A DNA stretch of 53,362 bases, taken from positions 1 to 53,362 of the IMG/VR virus record IMGVR_UViG_3300027749_000142. One strand, given 5' to 3'. The notes beneath the pieces were generated by a model. It did no database searches. It saw nothing but the letters and a program-made list of their open reading frames with translations, and was not told where the DNA came from. The translations under genes and the position numbers were made by a program. Source of the DNA: a virus. Numbering within the stretch: position 1 is the first letter of the stretch; each line of letters begins with the position of its first letter. Of the stretch, positions 31,017-51,524 are shown one piece after another.

Positions 31017-31904
31017 TTATTCTTCAGCTAACTTACTGAAGTAAGCCATATCATCGTCATCACCAACTAGTTCTGGTTCTTTAGTTGCAAACTTAGCAGG
31101 ATTGGCACGAGCCTCTGCTTTAATAGTTTCAACTGTAGTCTTAGGTGCAATTACTTCACCGTTTAAACCAAGAACCTTTTCAAGACGATTCTTCAAGTCA
31201 TCATATGTTTTGAATTCTTTATCAGTCACCAAAGTTTTTAGTGTATGTTCAGACTTCCAAATTGTTTCGAGTTCTTCATCATTGGTAGACAATGGCGCAG
31301 CTGACTCAAATTCAGACTTGTCATAGTTCTGATAACCTTCAACTTTACGAATCTTAATTTTAAAGTTAGCACCTTTCCACATATCAAATGGATTGATTGC
31401 TGTTTCATCTTCAAACTGAGGATTCATCGCTTCAGTAATCTTATCGAAAATCTTGGCACCAAACTTGAATAGTTTGACTTTGCCTTCATTTTCAGGATTC
31501 TTAGGGTCTGAAACAATATACACGTTAGTGATATAATTCAGTTTACGTTTTTGTTTACTAACGATATCACGATTAGCTTTAACACCAGAATTCCACAAAA
31601 CAGAATTGTGTTCACAGACAGGACATTGTTGGTTTTTAGTAGTCAAGCAGTTATCGATTAACCAACCACCAGGACCTTGGAATCCATGAGAGAAGATTTT
31701 AACCCATGGCAAAGATTCATCACCATCACCTTCAGATGCAGGAAGAAAACGGACAGTGGCCATGCCATTGCCTGCTTTATCCACAGATGGTTTCCAGAAT
31801 AGGTCTTTGTTTTCATCACCAGACGTTGCATTGAGAGATTCAATAGCCTTAGTGAGTTTGTCGAGATTGCCAGATTGGCGTTTGAGATTAGCAAATGAGC
31901 TCAT
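31017..31904 (-). CDS. 32: Single-stranded DNA-binding protein gp32
   Basis: 295 residues (T4 gp32 has 301). The zinc site is visible as H73, C86, C94 and C97 (HGFQGPGGWLIDNC, then CPVC). The N-terminus has the basic MSSFANLKRQSGNLDKL arm used for cooperative binding, and the C-terminus is acidic (ELVGDDDDMAYFSKLAEE), the tail that contacts replication partners. gp32 coats ssDNA at replication forks and in recombination. It has its own promoter and a leader with repeats, in keeping with autogenous control in T4. Shine-Dalgarno AAGGA. Confidence 0.96.
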   Translation of the reverse strand: MSSFANLKRQSGNLDKLTKAIESLNATSGDENKDLFWKPSVDKAGNGMATVRFLPASEGDGDESLPWVKIFSHGFQGPGGWLIDNCLTTKNQQCPVCEHNSVLWNSGVKANRDIVSKQKRKLNYITNVYIVSDPKNPENEGKVKLFKFGAKIFDKITEAMNPQFEDETAINPFDMWKGANFKIKIRKVEGYQNYDKSEFESAAPLSTNDEELETIWKSEHTLKTLVTDKEFKTYDDLKNRLEKVLGLNGEVIAPKTTVETIKAEARANPAKFATKEPELVGDDDDMAYFSKLAEE

Positions 31905-31920
31905 TTTGTTTTCCTTATAA

Positions 31921-31944
31921 ACGGAGTATTAAATATTACGGAGT
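31921..31944 (-). promoter_or_regulatory. Repeated leader motif before gp32
   Basis: On the minus strand ACTCCGT occurs twice, 17 bases apart, in the AT-rich leader between promoter and gp32 RBS. In T4 the gp32 leader is the autoregulatory operator. That these repeats serve the same purpose is inference. Confidence 0.35.
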
Positions 31945-31971
31945 GTAAACGGTTTGTTTCACATGATGCAT

Positions 31972-32000
31972 AGTATATCATATATTTAGGCGCTTGTCAA
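31972..32000 (-). promoter_or_regulatory. sigma70-type promoter for gp32
   Basis: TTGACA (32000-31995), 17-base spacer, TATACT (31977-31972) on the minus strand. Predicted start near 31965 gives a ~60-base leader before gp32. The -35 box overlaps the end of the HAD gene. Confidence 0.8.
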
Positions 32001-32488
32001 ACGTATAATTTCAAGATTGCCAGAGTGGTTACCCAATCTTTGTGATATATGGCATGTCCACCAGCTCCTATAAATTGTTTGACGTTTATTTCAGTATCGT
32101 CAATCAATAAAGTATCTGGTCGAGCATACTCTTTTTTGTGCCGTTTTCCAGGCACAAGAATTGGTTTGAAGGTAATATTATGTTTCTTCAACCAATTAAT
32201 TTTTTGTTCTTGCACATCTTCATGTACCTCAGGTCTTGCCGTTGAGGAAAGAATTTCAGTTGGAATATGAATTTTGTTTAGATAATCTAATCCAACTTGT
32301 GCATCATCCATAAGTGGAAGTTTTTCGAAGCCTTTGTTATCAATCATTTGACGGAAATAAGGTTCAAACTTTTTTTCTTTTTCGGCTTGGCGTGGATGAA
32401 TTCCGTGCTGCCTAATGTATTCACGATTAAAGTCAGCAATGACACCATCCATGTCTAGATAGATTTTGGTGATTTTATAAAACGGCAT
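31997..32488 (-). CDS. HAD-family 5'-nucleotidase-like phosphatase
   Basis: 163 residues. YLDMDGVIADFN carries the HAD nucleophile and acid/base (D12, D14). LSSTARPE fits motif II with a Ser, and LLIDDTEINVKQF is motif IV. The short size and DMDGV form fit the 5'(3')-deoxyribonucleotidase branch, so nucleotide metabolism is likely. It overlaps gp59 by 14 bases and lies between gp59 and gp32. Confidence 0.8.
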   Translation of the reverse strand: MPFYKITKIYLDMDGVIADFNREYIRQHGIHPRQAEKEKKFEPYFRQMIDNKGFEKLPLMDDAQVGLDYLNKIHIPTEILSSTARPEVHEDVQEQKINWLKKHNITFKPILVPGKRHKKEYARPDTLLIDDTEINVKQFIGAGGHAIYHKDWVTTLAILKLYV

Positions 32489-33077
32489 AATCTTTAATTT
32501 TCTCTTGCAATATATTCTTCATTTTGTTCTTGTCGTAAAACAAAAACGGTTTGTATTTTTCACATTTATTTTTCAATTCAGGCCAAACAATATCATCAAT
32601 AATCTTTTTCTCCCACATGGGAAAGAAGTTTAGTAAATCATTCAAAATAACCAGAGTTTCAATCGCAACTTTACCATGCATTGTTTCTACCAATAACTTT
32701 GGATAGTTGCCTGATTCCACTTTGAAGATATTATTGTGGTTATCCAATACATGTATTATATCAGATTCAAACTGATATGTCAAGCTCTGGATTCTTTTTT
32801 GCCACTTTTTATAGTTTTCTTCATTGTCAGGTCCTGTTATATCACCAACCCAATTAACGTCTTGGACTATGAAGTTGGAGATATAATAGTTCCTGAGTTC
32901 ATCCAACGAGTATTTCCTAGACAAACGATAGAACGTAAACTTATCCTTTCTTATTGAAAAGGATTGTTTAGAAACATTCGTTTTACCATTGTACTTTACA
33001 TAGTCATAAGAACCTGTGAAGTGTAACTTGAGAGCATGAAACATGGCAAACGCTGCGAAGCCAGTATTCTCACTCAT
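32475..33077 (-). CDS. 59: Helicase loader gp59
   Basis: 200 residues (T4 gp59 has 217). GSYDYVKYNGKTNVSKQSFS, KDKFTFYRLSRKYSLDELRN and YYISNFIVQDVNWVGDITG align well with the remembered T4 gp59 sequence (GKYDVIKYN...RRDKYFFQKLSEKY...ISNLV...WIGDI). gp59 loads the replicative helicase on gp32-coated forks. Order gp33-gp59-gp32 is as in T4. ATGA overlap with gp33. Confidence 0.88.
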   Translation of the reverse strand: MSENTGFAAFAMFHALKLHFTGSYDYVKYNGKTNVSKQSFSIRKDKFTFYRLSRKYSLDELRNYYISNFIVQDVNWVGDITGPDNEENYKKWQKRIQSLTYQFESDIIHVLDNHNNIFKVESGNYPKLLVETMHGKVAIETLVILNDLLNFFPMWEKKIIDDIVWPELKNKCEKYKPFLFYDKNKMKNILQEKIKDYAVL

Positions 33078-33295
33078 AACGGTAGTTTAGATGTTTTCCT
33101 TAGCATGTTAGCATCTTGCGCTTCTTCTCTAATACGACCTTTTAATGCGGCTGATATTAGAGAAGAAGCAACTTCAATTTCCAAGCCAGTTGTTTTACAA
33201 TGTTCTAGGATGGCATCCATATGTGTACACCGCAAACGAATGGCCAAGTCTCTAATCATTAGACTGAATTCAGATATTTCATTTTTAGTTGGCAT
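33074..33295 (-). CDS. 33: Late transcription co-activator gp33
   Basis: 73 residues. EFSLMIRDLAIRLRCTHMDA, ILEHCKTTGLEIEVASSLIS, AALKGRIREEAQDANML is the pattern of short gp33 proteins in T4-like phages of aquatic bacteria. It bridges host RNA polymerase, the late sigma factor gp55 and the sliding clamp. Small size and location beside gp59 agree. Its presence predicts TATAAATA-type late promoters. Confidence 0.85.
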   Translation of the reverse strand: MPTKNEISEFSLMIRDLAIRLRCTHMDAILEHCKTTGLEIEVASSLISAALKGRIREEAQDANMLRKTSKLPL

Positions 33296-33321
33296 AGTAG
33301 TTTAAGTATTCAAAGATATAC

Positions 33322-33350
33322 ATTATAAGGTATCACAAGTCAAATGTCAA
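33322..33350 (-). promoter_or_regulatory. Consensus sigma70 promoter for gp33-gp59-HAD
   Basis: TTGACA (33350-33345), 17-base spacer, TATAAT (33327-33322) on the minus strand: both boxes perfect. It lies directly upstream of gp33. Confidence 0.88.
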
Positions 33351-33353
33351 CAA

Positions 33354-33887
33354 CTATATTGATTTGTACCGATAAAAGATGTGATTACCAATCTTAGAGA
33401 CAACTGGTAGATTCCAACCCGGATTTACATAGTCGGCATGATAGAACATAGCTTTCTTTAAGTAAAGCAATTCATGTGCTATAGGTTCTGTTAAAGCTTT
33501 TCTTGCAACAATAAGAGATTCTTCCCATGAATACTTGTTCTTGGCAGAAAGGTTTTCTTTCATGCAAGTCCAAGAAAATTGGCAAGTTACTTTGCCATTG
33601 ATATTGTCTCTTTGGTGTACTACATTGCAGATTGAGGATGAATATCTGCCAGAATTAGCACGATTCAATGTTACTTGTGCTACTGCTAGTTTACCCTCGA
33701 ATGATTCTGTTGCAGCTTCATAGTATATGTTCTCTGCAAGACAGTTCATTTCTTTTTTGAATTCCATTCCAACTATATGCTTTGTTGATGGACTGGTGGC
33801 CAATGATTGTTGAAAAGTTGCTGTGAATGTACATAAACTTATTGTGATTAATGAAATAAAAAGGAATTTCTTTTTACTTAACTTCAT
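33354..33887 (-). CDS. SleB/CwlJ-type cell-wall hydrolase, exported
   Basis: 177 residues with an N-terminal signal or signal-anchor (KKFLFISLITISLCTFTATF). CLAENIYYEAATESFEGKLA, VAQVTLNRANSGRYSSSICN, VTCQFSWTC and AMFYHADYVNPGW are the conserved blocks of the SleB-like family; E57 in YYEA is the likely catalytic Glu. Acting in the periplasm on peptidoglycan, it is the best endolysin candidate in the window; no holin is identified next to it. Strong Shine-Dalgarno (AAGGAG). Confidence 0.88.
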   Translation of the reverse strand: MKLSKKKFLFISLITISLCTFTATFQQSLATSPSTKHIVGMEFKKEMNCLAENIYYEAATESFEGKLAVAQVTLNRANSGRYSSSICNVVHQRDNINGKVTCQFSWTCMKENLSAKNKYSWEESLIVARKALTEPIAHELLYLKKAMFYHADYVNPGWNLPVVSKIGNHIFYRYKSI

Positions 33888-34329: not shown

Positions 34330-34497
34330 TCAACTCGATTTTTTGGCTGCTTTCTTAGCTTCTGCTTTCTTAGCTACAGGCTTAGCACTTTCTTTCTTAA
34401 CTGTTGCTGCTGGTGCAGCCGGTTTTGCTGGTGCTGAAGATTGTGCGAAAGAAACAGTTGCGAATGCTAACATTACTAGTGCGATAATTGATTTCAT
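34330..34497 (-). CDS. 55-residue exported Ala/Lys/Pro-rich peptide
   Basis: Short gene with an excellent Shine-Dalgarno (AAAGGA, six bases before ATG). MKSIIALVMLAFATVSFA is a clear signal peptide with cleavage before QSSAPAK. The mature ~37 residues are only Ala, Lys, Pro, Ser, Val, Thr and Glu (PAAPAATVKKESAKP, KKAEAKKAAKKSS), a strongly basic, disordered, histone-tail-like peptide. It sits between two hairpins with the same loop and just downstream of the tmRNA. Export to the periplasm is likely; its role (membrane, wall or nucleic-acid binding) is unknown. Confidence 0.75.
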   Translation of the reverse strand: MKSIIALVMLAFATVSFAQSSAPAKPAAPAATVKKESAKPVAKKAEAKKAAKKSS

Positions 34498-34524
34498 ATT
34501 GATTCCTTTAAAAAATTTAAAACT

Positions 34525-34555
34525 GATAGGTTATTCTGTTACGAGGAAACCTATC
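34525..34555 (-). ncRNA. Conserved-loop hairpin, copy 2, at the 3' end of the tmRNA coding piece
   Basis: Minus-strand perfect 8-bp stem GATAGGTT / AACCTATC with loop TCCTCGTAACAGAAT. It is followed by AGTTTTAAATTTTTT, so it may define the 3' end of the tmRNA piece as a terminator or processing site. It also lies in front of the 55-residue gene. Confidence 0.65.
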
Positions 34556-34572
34556 GAAACCCTAGTCAGCGT

Positions 34573-34605
34573 TTAGGCTGCCAATGCGAACTGTGAGTCG
34601 TTTGC
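34573..34605 (-). other. tmRNA tag reading frame (ANDSQFALAA-stop)
   Basis: Resume codon GCA then AAC GAC TCA CAG TTC GCA TTG GCA GCC TAA. ANDSQFALAA ends in the LAA signal recognised by ClpXP-type proteases and has the length of the E. coli tag ANDENYALAA. The upstream AGTAAAC fits the resume-site context. Confidence 0.92.
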
Positions 34606-34752
34606 GTTTACTTTATTTTCTTCTTTTTACATCGTTGCTGATGTGCTGTCCACTCTGTTACTCTTTGCCCTGTCGAAACTAGTCTCCCCCATCAAAAACA
34701 GTCTTGTATATGAATGCACTATGGACTTATAACATCTGACCCAAACTGCTTA

Positions 34753-34829
34753 TGGTGGAGGAGGGGGGATTCGCACCCCCGTCCAGAACACTTTTCTCTT
34801 TGCTTCATACAGCAATATCACTTAATCAT
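34753..34829 (-). ncRNA. ssrA: tmRNA acceptor (tRNA-like) piece of a permuted ssrA
   Basis: The 3' end is GGACGGGGGTGCGAATC then CCCCCCTCCTCCACCA: a 5-bp G/C T-arm with a 7-base loop (TGCGAAT), a seven-base acceptor strand, discriminator A and encoded CCA. There is no room or sequence for a normal tRNA 5' half in front; the matching 5' acceptor strand starts 62 bases downstream at 34690. The 5' end is set at the predicted transcription start; processing may shorten it. Confidence 0.85.
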
Positions 34830-34835
34830 GTGAGT

Positions 34836-34864
34836 ATTATACATCAGTCAAAGACTAATGGCAA
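34836..34864 (-). promoter_or_regulatory. sigma70-type promoter of the tmRNA
   Basis: TTGCCA (34864-34859), 17-base spacer, TATAAT (34841-34836) on the minus strand, between the nuclease stop and the acceptor piece. Predicted start ~34829. The -35 box is the TTGCCA variant seen at three other promoters here. Confidence 0.82.
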
Positions 34865-34871
34865 GAAATAT

Positions 34872-35690
34872 TTAGTCTGCCGATGCATTACTACCACATT
34901 TGCCACGTTTTGCATTGGTCAAAGCACCAAAGTCTACTGCCCATTCTTTTCCTGGTTGTAGTTCAACTGCGCCTTGTGGGAAACCAAATGTAACACCAGC
35001 TTGTTGTTGTATTTGTGGAATAGGAATACGAAACTTAGTTAAATCGTTACCTAGATTAGGATAAGGTGCAACATGAGGAAAACCCCAACCAGCAACTTCA
35101 TTCGTTTGATTATTAATTACAATTTTATAAAAACCATGTGGTACAACTACACCATTACCAATACGTTTATCAGTTGCATTGTAAATGCCTCCAACATAAA
35201 TCGTATACGATTGGTTTCTTTGAACGGACCATCCTCTTACAGAGGTCTCTAACAGTTTCCATATGCCACGGTTCAAAGATCCAGCTTGAGGTGACATATT
35301 TGTCATCAAAAAAGATTCGTATTCTACTTGTGGATCCCATGAAAGGTCACCATCAGGACTCATGTGTCCTTTGTCGTAACCAGTACCAGCATAATCTTCA
35401 GGTTTGGCACCATTCGGTACAGATTGGTCAGCAGCAAATGCATTAGTACGTGCAACACAACCTAATGCATTTTGTGGCATCAATTCATATGTTACATACT
35501 TTGGTAGTTTAGCTGCAGCATCATATCCCACCAAATAGGCCTGACGGCAAATTGGTGTTATGCCTGCTGTTTGTGGAAAACCATAAGGTGCGTGTACCTT
35601 ACAAGTTTGTGGATCTTGTGGTGTTCTTTGTGTCCATGCAAATGTTGGTAATGTGCAAATCATGCACAAAGCAATTAATAACTTTTTCAT
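34872..35690 (-). CDS. Exported DNA/RNA non-specific endonuclease (NUC1 type)
   Basis: 272 residues from ATG at 35690; a TTG nine bases upstream is rejected because the ATG forms an ATGA overlap with the previous gene. MKKLLIALCMICTLPTFAW is a signal peptide. GYDKGHMSPDGD holds the DxGH catalytic His (H109). TNMSPQAGSLNRGIWKLLE has the metal-binding Asn (N140) of the betabetaalpha-metal nuclease family. Cysteines suit a disulphide in the periplasm. It could degrade nucleic acid in the periplasm, for nucleotide salvage or against incoming DNA; both are inference. Confidence 0.9.
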   Translation of the reverse strand: MKKLLIALCMICTLPTFAWTQRTPQDPQTCKVHAPYGFPQTAGITPICRQAYLVGYDAAAKLPKYVTYELMPQNALGCVARTNAFAADQSVPNGAKPEDYAGTGYDKGHMSPDGDLSWDPQVEYESFLMTNMSPQAGSLNRGIWKLLETSVRGWSVQRNQSYTIYVGGIYNATDKRIGNGVVVPHGFYKIVINNQTNEVAGWGFPHVAPYPNLGNDLTKFRIPIPQIQQQAGVTFGFPQGAVELQPGKEWAVDFGALTNAKRGKCGSNASAD

Positions 35691-35989
35691 TGTGTACAAG
35701 TCCTTGTTCTTGTTATTGTGCCATCAGAATTTTGTACCTCTGTCCATGGGCTACAATATTGTTGATTCTGTTGTTGCACAATAACTGGTTGCTGTTGTAC
35801 AACTACAGGCGGTTGTTGTTTTGCAATTTCATAACCAATCACACCACCAATAACTGTTGGTGCAACCCAAATCCAAGGACTTGGACCACCTCTATGTTGC
35901 CAGTATCCGTGATGATAATGTTGTGCCAATGCAGGCACTGGCATACATGATGTTAAAGTAATGCATAATGTTAATAGAAAGTTTTTCAT
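35687..35989 (-). CDS. Small exported His/Gln-rich protein
   Basis: 100 residues. The signal sequence MKNFLLTLCITLTSCMPVPA ends near ALAQ; the Cys could alternatively be a weak lipobox. HYHHGYWQHRGG is His-rich and could bind metal. A Gly/Val stretch (APTVIGGVIGYEIA) is followed by Gln-rich QQPPVVVQQQPVIVQQQ. The C-terminus CSPWTEVQNSDGTITRTRTC has two Cys. It looks like bacterial periplasmic proteins and may be host-derived. Coupled by overlap to the nuclease gene. Confidence 0.7.
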   Translation of the reverse strand: MKNFLLTLCITLTSCMPVPALAQHYHHGYWQHRGGPSPWIWVAPTVIGGVIGYEIAKQQPPVVVQQQPVIVQQQNQQYCSPWTEVQNSDGTITRTRTCTQ

Positions 35990-36639
35990 TTCTTATCCTT
36001 ATAGTACTGAATTGCTTTAACAAGTCCATCGATGTGGTCTTCTGTTTTTTGAATGAACAATAATGGTTTGCTGTTTTCTACAGCCATAACAATAACTAAT
36101 TGGTTGATTGGTGTACCAACCAATTCTTCATACATCAAAGCATAAGCGGCAGTTTGCCAGAAATAGTCTTCAATATCTTTGATTGATTTAACTTTCTTAG
36201 AAGTCTTAAAATCAATAACAGATAATGTACCAGCAAACTCAGCAATACAGTCTACACGACCAGCAAGACCAAGTTTCGTAGACCACAAGGCCTGCTCTTG
36301 GTAATGAATGTTGTCGATTTGGTCTAGTAATGGTTTAATGTCATTGAACATCTCTTTTGCATCAGGCATAATGTCACCAAGAGAATCGTTATTCAAATAA
36401 CGTTCACACAATGTATGTACATTTGTTCCTCTTGATGTGGCCTTCTTAGAGATTGCGTTTGCAACTTCATCACCCACACGTTTACGCCATGCCATGATGG
36501 CGTCCTTTTTCATGGCACCTAGTACTGTAGTGACAGAAGGTAAATTCGTTCCATCCGGTAGAGTGTAGTATCTCTTACCATCTGATAACGTTTGTGATTT
36601 TAAATCATCAATATTTTTTGGTGGGCAATAATTAAACAT
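35986..36639 (-). CDS. PD-(D/E)XK exonuclease, RecB/Cas4-like
   Basis: 217 residues. The nuclease core is GLAGRVDCIAEF (D130) and LSVIDFKTSKK (D143, K145), with E115 in YQEQALWS and H75 in GTNVHTLCE, followed by DYFWQTAAYALMYEE, which is the QxxxY-like helix. This is the single-domain nuclease common in T4-like aquatic phages, probably in DNA repair or recombination. It is cytoplasmic, with no signal peptide. ATGA overlap with the next gene. Confidence 0.85.
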   Translation of the reverse strand: MFNYCPPKNIDDLKSQTLSDGKRYYTLPDGTNLPSVTTVLGAMKKDAIMAWRKRVGDEVANAISKKATSRGTNVHTLCERYLNNDSLGDIMPDAKEMFNDIKPLLDQIDNIHYQEQALWSTKLGLAGRVDCIAEFAGTLSVIDFKTSKKVKSIKDIEDYFWQTAAYALMYEELVGTPINQLVIVMAVENSKPLLFIQKTEDHIDGLVKAIQYYKDKK

Positions 36640-50343: not shown

Positions 50344-50502
50344 TTATTCCTCCAAAGAATCAAGTGCTTCACATATGCAGCTATCAGCCACACTCATAAG
50401 GGATTCTAAACTAATATCACCCTCTTGGCAAGCATCATGGTACACATCCGACAATAACTTCTGCGCCTGTTGTAATTTTGCAACAATTTCTTGGTCACTC
50501 AT
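50344..50502 (-). CDS. 52-residue acidic helical protein
   Basis: MSDQEIVAKLQQAQKLLSDV, YHDACQEGDISLESLMSVAD, SCICEALDSLEE. It overlaps the RNA-ligase stop by four bases (ATGA), and its own end carries the Shine-Dalgarno of the next gene. Two helices, three Cys. Unknown role. A TTGCCA-N17-TAGAAT sequence inside it (50431-50403) is a weak candidate promoter for the downstream genes. Confidence 0.72.
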   Translation of the reverse strand: MSDQEIVAKLQQAQKLLSDVYHDACQEGDISLESLMSVADSCICEALDSLEE

Positions 50503-51524
50503 GAATTTTCTCCTAATAGATATTTGTTTGAAATAACCTTGAAGGTCATTCCACCATTGATTTCCTTGAATACAATGCCTTCACGTTCAGGTCCTGTAAT
50601 ATCTCCCATCACAGATTTTGCTTCCGCAAAACTCAACAACCCCTCAATGCCACCAGCACCAGCCAATTCATAGTCCTCAACCATAACAGGAACGTGAAGT
50701 AAACCCATCATTTTAATCAAGGTCTGACGTTTATTTGGTGTCACATAAAACCCACCAGAAATATTGTATACATCAAACACACGGAACTCAGGCTTTGACA
50801 GCTTGTAGATATTACCCTGGATACCAGGACCAATCAATTCACCTTGAATAGCAAAATCAGTACCAACAACTGTCCGCATTTTTTCTTCAATACCATCACG
50901 GCGAGCAACTTGCCAGAACGTATTTTCTACAGTTTCTTTCAGGTCAAGATTACGTGAGCATACACCAAACTCTCCATCAAGTAAATAACAAGTCATTGAA
51001 CTGCCTTCTAGCTTTTCAGTAACTTCAAACTTCATACCCGCTTCACTAGCAGAAATTACCTCTTGTACAAGGTTCTGCACCCGTTCTTGATCGGTCTTTG
51101 GAATCAATGAAGGTAAGTTACCTTTCGCCATGCCAGCCAATTGGGCGTTCATTGGACGTTCCCATTTGATAACACCTAGATATTCCGACACATCGGCACC
51201 TTCACCAAATGAATGTGTTTCTGGAATCACTTGGTCTAGATTCAACAACAGACCTTGAGACAATTGACCACGTAGCTTTACAGTACGCAAGCGTTCACCT
51301 TTGATGCCTTCAAATTCCCTAGGTTCTTTGCCTTTGCTTAAAAATGGTGCTAACTTAGTAGGAATCCATGAGTCAATTTCGCAATAGACTGCACGATCAC
51401 CAACGTTGAATTCACCTTTTTTAACAACAACTTTCCATCCGCCAATCGTGGCACATTCAATTGCATCTGCACCATTGATAGGATCAATTGCATCAATTTT
51501 ACGAATAACAGCCATTTTACGCAT
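50499..51524 (-). CDS. RNA ligase, Rnl5 (DraRnl-like) family
   Basis: 341 residues. The N-terminal ~110 residues form an OB-like domain (KVVVKKGEFNVGDRAVYCEI). The ligase core begins at KFEVTEKLEGSSMTC, with K171 as the adenylated lysine (KxxG). Motif IIIa-like FRVFDVYNISGG, motif IV REGIVFKEI and motif V FKVISNKYLL follow. N-terminal OB plus C-terminal catalytic core is the Rnl5 layout of the Deinococcus enzyme, known to seal 3'-OH/5'-P nicks in RNA. Likely cytoplasmic RNA repair. Confidence 0.88.
   Translation of the reverse strand: MRKMAVIRKIDAIDPINGADAIECATIGGWKVVVKKGEFNVGDRAVYCEIDSWIPTKLAPFLSKGKEPREFEGIKGERLRTVKLRGQLSQGLLLNLDQVIPETHSFGEGADVSEYLGVIKWERPMNAQLAGMAKGNLPSLIPKTDQERVQNLVQEVISASEAGMKFEVTEKLEGSSMTCYLLDGEFGVCSRNLDLKETVENTFWQVARRDGIEEKMRTVVGTDFAIQGELIGPGIQGNIYKLSKPEFRVFDVYNISGGFYVTPNKRQTLIKMMGLLHVPVMVEDYELAGAGGIEGLLSFAEAKSVMGDITGPEREGIVFKEINGGMTFKVISNKYLLGENS

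Follow-up and report, generated by a model that had tools for sequence, protein, structure and literature searches.

A predicted permuted two-piece tmRNA at a near-constant slot of T4-like phages, with coupled elbow positions 18 and 55

Does a T4-like phage carry its own working ribosome-rescue RNA? The question is raised by a locus on the minus strand of IMGVR_UViG_3300027749_000142, a virus contig of 53,362 bases (the window, meaning the whole stretch analyzed), in which Rfam covariance models place a circularly permuted, two-piece transfer-messenger RNA (tmRNA) at 34814–34573. RF04321 matches with 123 bits (cut-off 47, E 1.3e-23) over model positions 1–213 of 213, RF01850 (beta_tmRNA) matches over its full length with 107.5 bits (cut-off 84, E 7.8e-32) as the best model of its clan, and ARAGORN also calls a permuted tmRNA, with the tag ANDSQFALAA. 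We consider it likely, at roughly 85%, that this is a working phage-encoded two-piece tmRNA, a reading that draws on the RNA anatomy, a conserved genomic slot, conserved base pairs, a coupling between positions 18 and 55, and a lack of SmpB in the phage records searched. A first-pass annotation, made from the letters of the window alone, had proposed a phage-encoded, permuted gene that is two-piece by anatomy, and the significant matches to permuted models bear this out; the absence of such a match, which it had named as telling against the proposal, was not what we obtained. The parts it had listed, from a promoter-like site through an acceptor piece, a 62-nucleotide (nt) spacer and a coding piece to ANDSQFALAA-stop, are all present, as follows (L-numbers here and below are our handles for loci).

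34836–34864, minus strand: sigma-70-like promoter TTGCCA-17-TATAAT, 11/12 match; the relative L205 has the same site
34753–34814, minus strand: acceptor piece, with a helix-2 strand, the T-arm, the acceptor 3' strand CUCCUCC, an A and an encoded CCA
34780–34764, minus strand: T-arm GGGGG-UGCGAAU-CCCCC, loop UGCGAAU, G55 at 34774
34763–34757, minus strand: acceptor strand CTCCTCC, followed by the discriminator A (34756) and CCA (34755–34753)
34691–34752, minus strand: intervening spacer, 62 nt, presumably excised by processing
34516–34690, minus strand: coding piece, including the tag frame and a 3' hairpin; 3' limit putative
34690–34684, minus strand: acceptor 5' strand GGGGGAG, the start of the coding piece
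34680, minus strand: A18, in the D-loop UAGUUUCGAC of the coding piece
34573–34605, minus strand: tag reading frame ANDSQFALAA-stop, as given by ARAGORN
34525–34555, minus strand: 3' hairpin GATAGGTT...AACCTATC followed by AGTTTTAAATTTTTT, closing the coding piece and possibly acting as a terminator

Position 34814 is where the RF04321 match starts, rather than a mapped mature 5' end, and a terminator scan did not list the hairpin at 34525–34555. The order of acceptor piece, spacer and coding piece is that of a permuted tmRNA, and the tag frame has a hydrophobic end and a stop. As the first-pass annotation had it, GGGGGAG and CTCCTCC pair at 7/7 positions with a single G-U, which is the third pair of the acceptor stem, G3-U70. 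Alanyl-tRNA synthetase (AlaRS) takes this pair as its main identity element. The ends of the spacer can form nine base pairs (bp), AAGCAGUUU/AGACUGUUU, two of them G-U.

The features on which such an RNA depends can be followed across its relatives. Of 185 two-piece hits returned by ARAGORN, 163 were parsed by rule, with the window and one cellular gene counted twice; the parser required at least 6/7 acceptor pairs and allowed G-U, so that pairing is partly built in, while the G-U at pair 3 is not. G3-U70 is kept in 163/163. Across 124 viral loci, both bases of acceptor pairs 4-69, 5-68 and 6-67 are variable, with pairing lost only once, at 6-67. CCA is encoded in 124 of the 129 parsed viral loci, a count that the parser slightly favors, and some of the 22 unparsed hits have no CCA by eye. 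Among 92 distinct viral spacers at least 52 nt long, 83 have a helix of 8 bp or more between their first and last 26 nt, the mean being 10.4 against 6.1 in shuffled sequences. Lastly, 76 of 99 distinct viral genes encode a tag with the end ALAA.

From this anatomy we infer a course of transcription, processing, charging, use of host SmpB and benefit to the phage. Host RNA polymerase would make one precursor from the sigma-70-like promoter, the paired spacer ends would extend the acceptor stem into a single long hairpin, and host tRNA-processing enzymes would cut 5' of GGGGGAG and 3' of CCA, yielding two RNAs that helix 2 and the acceptor stem would keep joined. Via G3-U70 this RNA would be charged by host AlaRS, and host SmpB and EF-Tu would deliver it to ribosomes that have stalled on broken mRNA; the tag ANDSQFALAA would then be appended, the tagged protein degraded by host proteases, and ribosomes and amino acids recycled while mRNA is being cut in infection. 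SmpB (PF01668) was not found in eight phage records of 16–164 kb in a search in which 10 of 14 control genomes were positive. Because it was found in none of these eight records, host SmpB is presumed, and host SmpB, AlaRS and proteases are most likely used for ribosome rescue.

Several observations weigh against the reading of a working two-piece tmRNA. The two-piece split is read from anatomy alone, and the phage records, being IMG/VR contigs, are possibly fragments, so that SmpB could be encoded beyond their ends. On its own, the match to a promoter lacks significance, since a scan at a limit of 9/12 found one site where shuffled sequences gave 1.4, and a universal sigma-70 promoter is not supported, with 24 of 95 distinct viral genes reaching 10/12 or more. 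The folding energy is unremarkable (z -1.05), and minimum-energy folding gives no signal.

The tags bear on the best-surviving alternative, namely that the RNA interferes with the host, either by competing with host tmRNA for SmpB, AlaRS or ribosomes or by appending an altered tag that protects proteins or sends them elsewhere. Unusual tag ends do occur among the 99 distinct viral genes (11 RLAA, 4 LMAA, 1 RQVA, 1 RLVA and 1 ALVA), and the relative L205, whose gp59 is 99% identical to that of the window, has the tag ANDSRFLMAA where the window has ANDSQFALAA. In the window gene itself, however, the tag frame is complete and closes with the common FALAA, CCA is encoded and G3-U70 is kept, so that nothing about it points to a blocker. 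We regard interference as improbable and rescue of ribosomes by a working tmRNA as the preferred reading. As separate observations, the tags of L225, L226, L253, L256 and L270, which end in RQVA, RLAA or RLVA, may be read otherwise by proteases, and the tmRNA gene of L205 (6124–6596) differs from that of the window in its 3' tag half, spacer and acceptor stem despite the near-identical gp59, which suggests recombination inside the tmRNA gene.

The genomic setting agrees with the T4-like phage named by the first-pass annotation: the window encodes matches to phrog_224, 254, 269, 219 and 230 (gp32, gp33, gp59 and T4-type baseplate), and its T4-like genes include a baseplate wedge and a tail tube cap. 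The neighbors of the tmRNA gene are as follows.

35986–36639, minus strand: PD-(D/E)XK exonuclease (exo; phrog_298, E 1.2e-71; PF12705), the upstream border of the slot
34872–35699, minus strand: DNA/RNA non-specific endonuclease (PF01223, E 2e-39), upstream neighbor and variable passenger of the slot
33354–33887, minus strand: cell-wall hydrolase, in the downstream conserved block (31017–33887)
33074–33295, minus strand: gp33-like late coactivator, downstream conserved block
32475–33077, minus strand: gp59 helicase loader, downstream conserved block
31997–32488, minus strand: NT5C-like nucleotidase, downstream conserved block
31017–31904, minus strand: gp32, downstream conserved block

Annotated phage proteins are distant from those of the window, every match listed for gp32 and gp59 being below 60% identity; the nearest listed, both in cyanophages, reach 54% for gp32 (best 40 of 2417 records) and ~41% for gp59 (best 60 of 2182). 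Relatives of gp59 are encoded in 76 IMG/VR loci, and mapping the window proteins and the ARAGORN matches onto them gives the order exo – (nuclease/other) – tmRNA – p93 – cell-wall hydrolase – gp33 – gp59 – (NT5C) – gp32, with variations. A permuted tmRNA is present in 41 of the 42 loci that combine exo with gp59, a set with many near-copies; ARAGORN finds 39, and Rfam adds L249 and L251. L248 alone has no tmRNA by ARAGORN or Rfam. Outside this set, exo adjoins gp33 in cyanophages S-SCSM1 and DSL-LC02, where ARAGORN detects no tmRNA. Approached from the RNA, a D-loop pattern scan gives at least 90 permuted tmRNA loci, 46 of which are followed on the same strand by gp33 or gp59 at no more than 5 kb; among the matches listed, this also holds for 33 of the 49 loci that have at least 3.5 kb downstream. 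Thus, the predicted tmRNA is a near-constant gene, in one slot, of a group of T4-like phages.

Some members of this wider set have been seen before, and the suggestion of the first-pass annotation that a permuted tmRNA in a T4-like phage may be undescribed does not stand. The Methylophilales phage Melnitz, published in 2022 and called T4-like, has a two-piece ssrA upstream of its transcription coactivator, and, according to the accessible text of that paper, screening 18,146 phage genomes gave 53 two-piece tmRNA structures, of which 50 belong to phages sampled in marine or aquatic settings (PMC9004378). There, Buchholz et al. propose that such RNAs help the hijacked machinery or selectively degrade host proteins (PMC9004378), and 79 unique bacteriophage tmRNAs are listed where the RF04321 model is described, again in the text accessible (PMC11915505). 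Melnitz resembles the window in being a T4-like myophage whose late-transcription coactivator gene is immediately preceded by a permuted tmRNA; it differs, going by its description, in that its ssrA was placed with alphaproteobacterial tmRNAs, whereas that of the window matches best as beta type, and in having a glutamine riboswitch in the 3' domain, whereas Rfam at its cut-offs gives no riboswitch in the window (PMC9004378).

Similarly, a permuted tmRNA annotated SsrA lies in the Pelagibacter phage Mosig (MT647606), and one that is absent from the annotated features lies in HTVC008M (KC465899). Like that of the window, both are flanked by gp33 on one side and by a nuclease or exonuclease gene on the other, and have an A18-G55 elbow (Mosig by rule, HTVC008M by eye). 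Unlike the window, both match alpha_tmRNA best (67.6 and 83.8 bits, respectively), and their tags are GEDNFALAA in Mosig and ANFNEYALAA in HTVC008M, compared with ANDSQFALAA. Further unannotated permuted tmRNAs, at 88–111 bits with RF04321, are found in Alcaligenes phage QDWS595, Xanthomonas phage Rb1 and Caulobacter phage CcrRogue; these, unlike that of the window, lie outside the exo–gp33–gp59 slot. L002, L003 and L004 are such unannotated permuted tmRNAs of published phage genomes; Rb1 stands out because its host group has a one-piece tmRNA. The near-constant slot and the coupled, toggling elbow described below had no match in print in our literature search; a table of PMC9004378 may list some of the group.

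In tRNA, G18 pairs with U55 and G19 with C56, according to the accessible part of a review (PMC7912444). Taking base 18 as the base before the conserved G and reading base 55 from the T-loop, we find A18 and G55 in the window. Among the 163 parsed two-piece genes, 72 have A18-G55 (47 viral, 25 cellular) and 91 have G18-U55 (82 viral, 9 cellular); mixed combinations occur in 0/163. By-eye reading of 19 of the 22 unparsed hits (all except L082, L103 and L115) agrees, L002 having one extra D-loop base after UGG, and L249 and L251 fit as well. L292 and L297, which are cellular and have alpha-kind tags, have a UUC-type loop in an irregular T-arm, with G18.

The rule was also tested by scanning for two T-arm patterns that are blind to the D-loop, with a T-stem of at least four pairs for the UGC set. 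At least 118 loci have UGC loops: 82 show A18, 11 are ambiguous, 4 offer several candidates, A18 being among them each time, and in 21 no coding piece was found. The 11 ambiguous loci were read by rule as G18, but have UAGG and one extra base before UCGA; their register is ambiguous and they are left out of the count for the rule. UUC loops were found at no fewer than 119 loci: 60 show G18 (35 permuted, 25 one-piece), and 57 have no piece found. Among the matches listed, no UUC locus has A18 alone, and two offer several candidates, of which one (L579) allows both G18 and A18. A 'GG' label at L631, considered as an exception, proved to be a parse error at a very short spacer. Cellular UGC loops have A18 in 12/12 cases, two more matches having been dropped for a poor T-stem. 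Thus, as far as these readings go, positions 18 and 55 are coupled, as A18-G55 or G18-U55, without clear exception.

A narrower idea, that A18 with the loop UGCRANU is phage-only, was rejected, since 12 of 398 genomes of one bacterial phylum have UGCGAUU T-arms of tmRNA, all with A18, and 25 of 34 parsed cellular genes have A18 with other G55 loops. The coupling also holds in a one-piece gene: a scan of genome contigs for GACTAGTTTCGACAGGG gave four matches, in one of which, from an Omnitrophota metagenome-assembled genome, ARAGORN finds a one-piece tmRNA with A18/G55 (L280, 7043–7438; predicted tag of 26 amino acids). In print, the accessible text of PMC1168896 records that in Caulobacter a G takes the place of U342 and that a mitochondrial tmRNA has two Gs, with no D-loop partner mentioned there, and our literature search, whose scope took in few subscription papers, found no paper on 18–55 coupling in tmRNA.

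The elbow has toggled repeatedly. On a tree of 62 gp59 proteins, its label needs nine changes, of which at least seven are forced by well-supported branches. For instance, L212 and L226 (A18-G55) and L215 and L216 (G18-U55) have closely similar tmRNA genes, and the gp59 proteins of L212 and L215 are nearly identical. Most simply, the pair appears to have changed in place; a small recombination may be an alternative.

These changes, together with the slot, count against the next alternative, a captured fragment of host ssrA or a decaying relic without function. Host ssrA genes are integration sites for prophages, whose genomes contain fragments of them, as the text accessible in PMC9004378 states. 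A relic, however, would not be expected to keep a full-length RNA, a fixed slot in 41/42 loci, G3-U70 in 163/163 genes and coupled elbow changes, including the double change between the closely similar genes of L212/L226 and L215/L216. We hold the relic explanation to be largely refuted and very improbable, and return to a working tmRNA.

The lineage of this RNA combines a beta-type body with an alpha-like elbow. Cellular genes were assigned to alpha or beta type by model and tree, not by species name; the beta-type genes of RF01850 belong to an order that we take to be Burkholderiales. Like cellular beta-type ssrA, the window gene has the beta body, with RF01850, at 107.5 bits, above its cut-off of 84 and best of the clan, while cellular genes above that cut-off score 157.5–331 bits, except L324 at 104. 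Unlike it, the window has A18/G55, whereas G18-U55 is found in every readable cellular beta-type gene (L636 left out). Alphaproteobacterial ssrA (RF01849) resembles the window in A18-G55, which is also in the RF01849 consensus; its loops are GGCRGUA in 24 of the 25 parsed cellular A18 genes and UGCGAUU in the 12/398 genomes already mentioned, of the phylum of a Methylobacterium, and its body is at most 51% identical to that of the window.

When the elbow columns are removed, 62 of 64 slot tmRNAs, including that of the window, still fall with the 9 cellular beta-type genes (support 97/97) and apart from 36 cellular alpha-type genes, in a tree whose bootstrap had not settled. Inheritance of the elbow from an alpha-type gene is therefore not supported, and the combination of a beta-type body with an elbow otherwise mainly of alpha type is most simply read as a repeated double change rather than alpha descent. 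Mosig, with L276, falls on the alpha side, among cellular alpha-type genes and on long branches, unlike the window.

The same comparison disposes of the weakest alternative, a bacterial chromosome piece misassembled onto phage DNA: the contig is metagenomic and cellular beta-type tmRNAs exist, but the window RNA is at most 57% identical to the nine cellular beta tmRNAs (258 columns) compared with 82% to the phage gene of L205, and since the same neighborhood recurs in contigs L205, L206 and L050, we regard misassembly as refuted.

In a wider tmRNA tree, 17 cellular beta-type rows stand inside the phage diversity, at forks supported by 95/95 and 99/93. Four rows from another family stand beside alpha-type genes, a placing of which we are unsure, as two of them were on the phage side in the smaller tree. 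This wider tree kept the elbow unmasked, excluded beforehand half of the alpha rows and ten rows on long branches, and took in 12 of 18 further cellular loci, among them the misparsed L631. Among cells, the permuted form is patchy within families, exceeding the RF01850 cut-off in 4/41, 15/41 and 5/40 genomes, and 19 loci of the wider order are one-piece tmRNAs. T4-like phages might be an old reservoir of two-piece tmRNA from which at least the main cellular beta-type ssrA group derived. Because cell sampling is thin, with 5 to 30 candidates scored per genome, we offer this phage origin as a tentative and rather unlikely possibility. In the phages, the RNA is near-constant while its tertiary elbow pair toggles between G18-U55 and A18-G55. 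The direction in which two-piece tmRNA genes move between phages and bacteria becomes a testable question.

A ribosome-rescue RNA would thus be a near-constant gene in this T4-like group, not an odd passenger, and since its late-transcription and replication slot is the same as in marine relatives, many phages are available for testing what it does in infection. The 18–55 coupling likewise provides naturally occurring compensatory pairs at the elbow of the tRNA-like domain, which in tRNA is regarded as a highly conserved contact.

The gene next to the tmRNA, the endonuclease at 34872–35699, was considered as a functional partner, an idea weakened by its distribution: of 320 relatives found, 80 were kept (77–85% identical), and, judged in the fetched stretches, 72 of the 80 have no other slot gene, 6 have one weak slot-gene match, and only L202 and L204 have slot genes and a tmRNA. 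L205 and L213, from the gp59 set, also carry it, and the gene has the look of a mobile passenger. An RNA ligase (PF09414, phrog_968) is encoded at 50499–51524 of the window, in which ARAGORN detects no tRNA gene. Right after the tmRNA hairpin begins a small, secreted-looking, Ala/Lys-rich protein of 55 amino acids (34330–34497), whose start is shared by L205, while L213, L232 and L235 differ there by eye.
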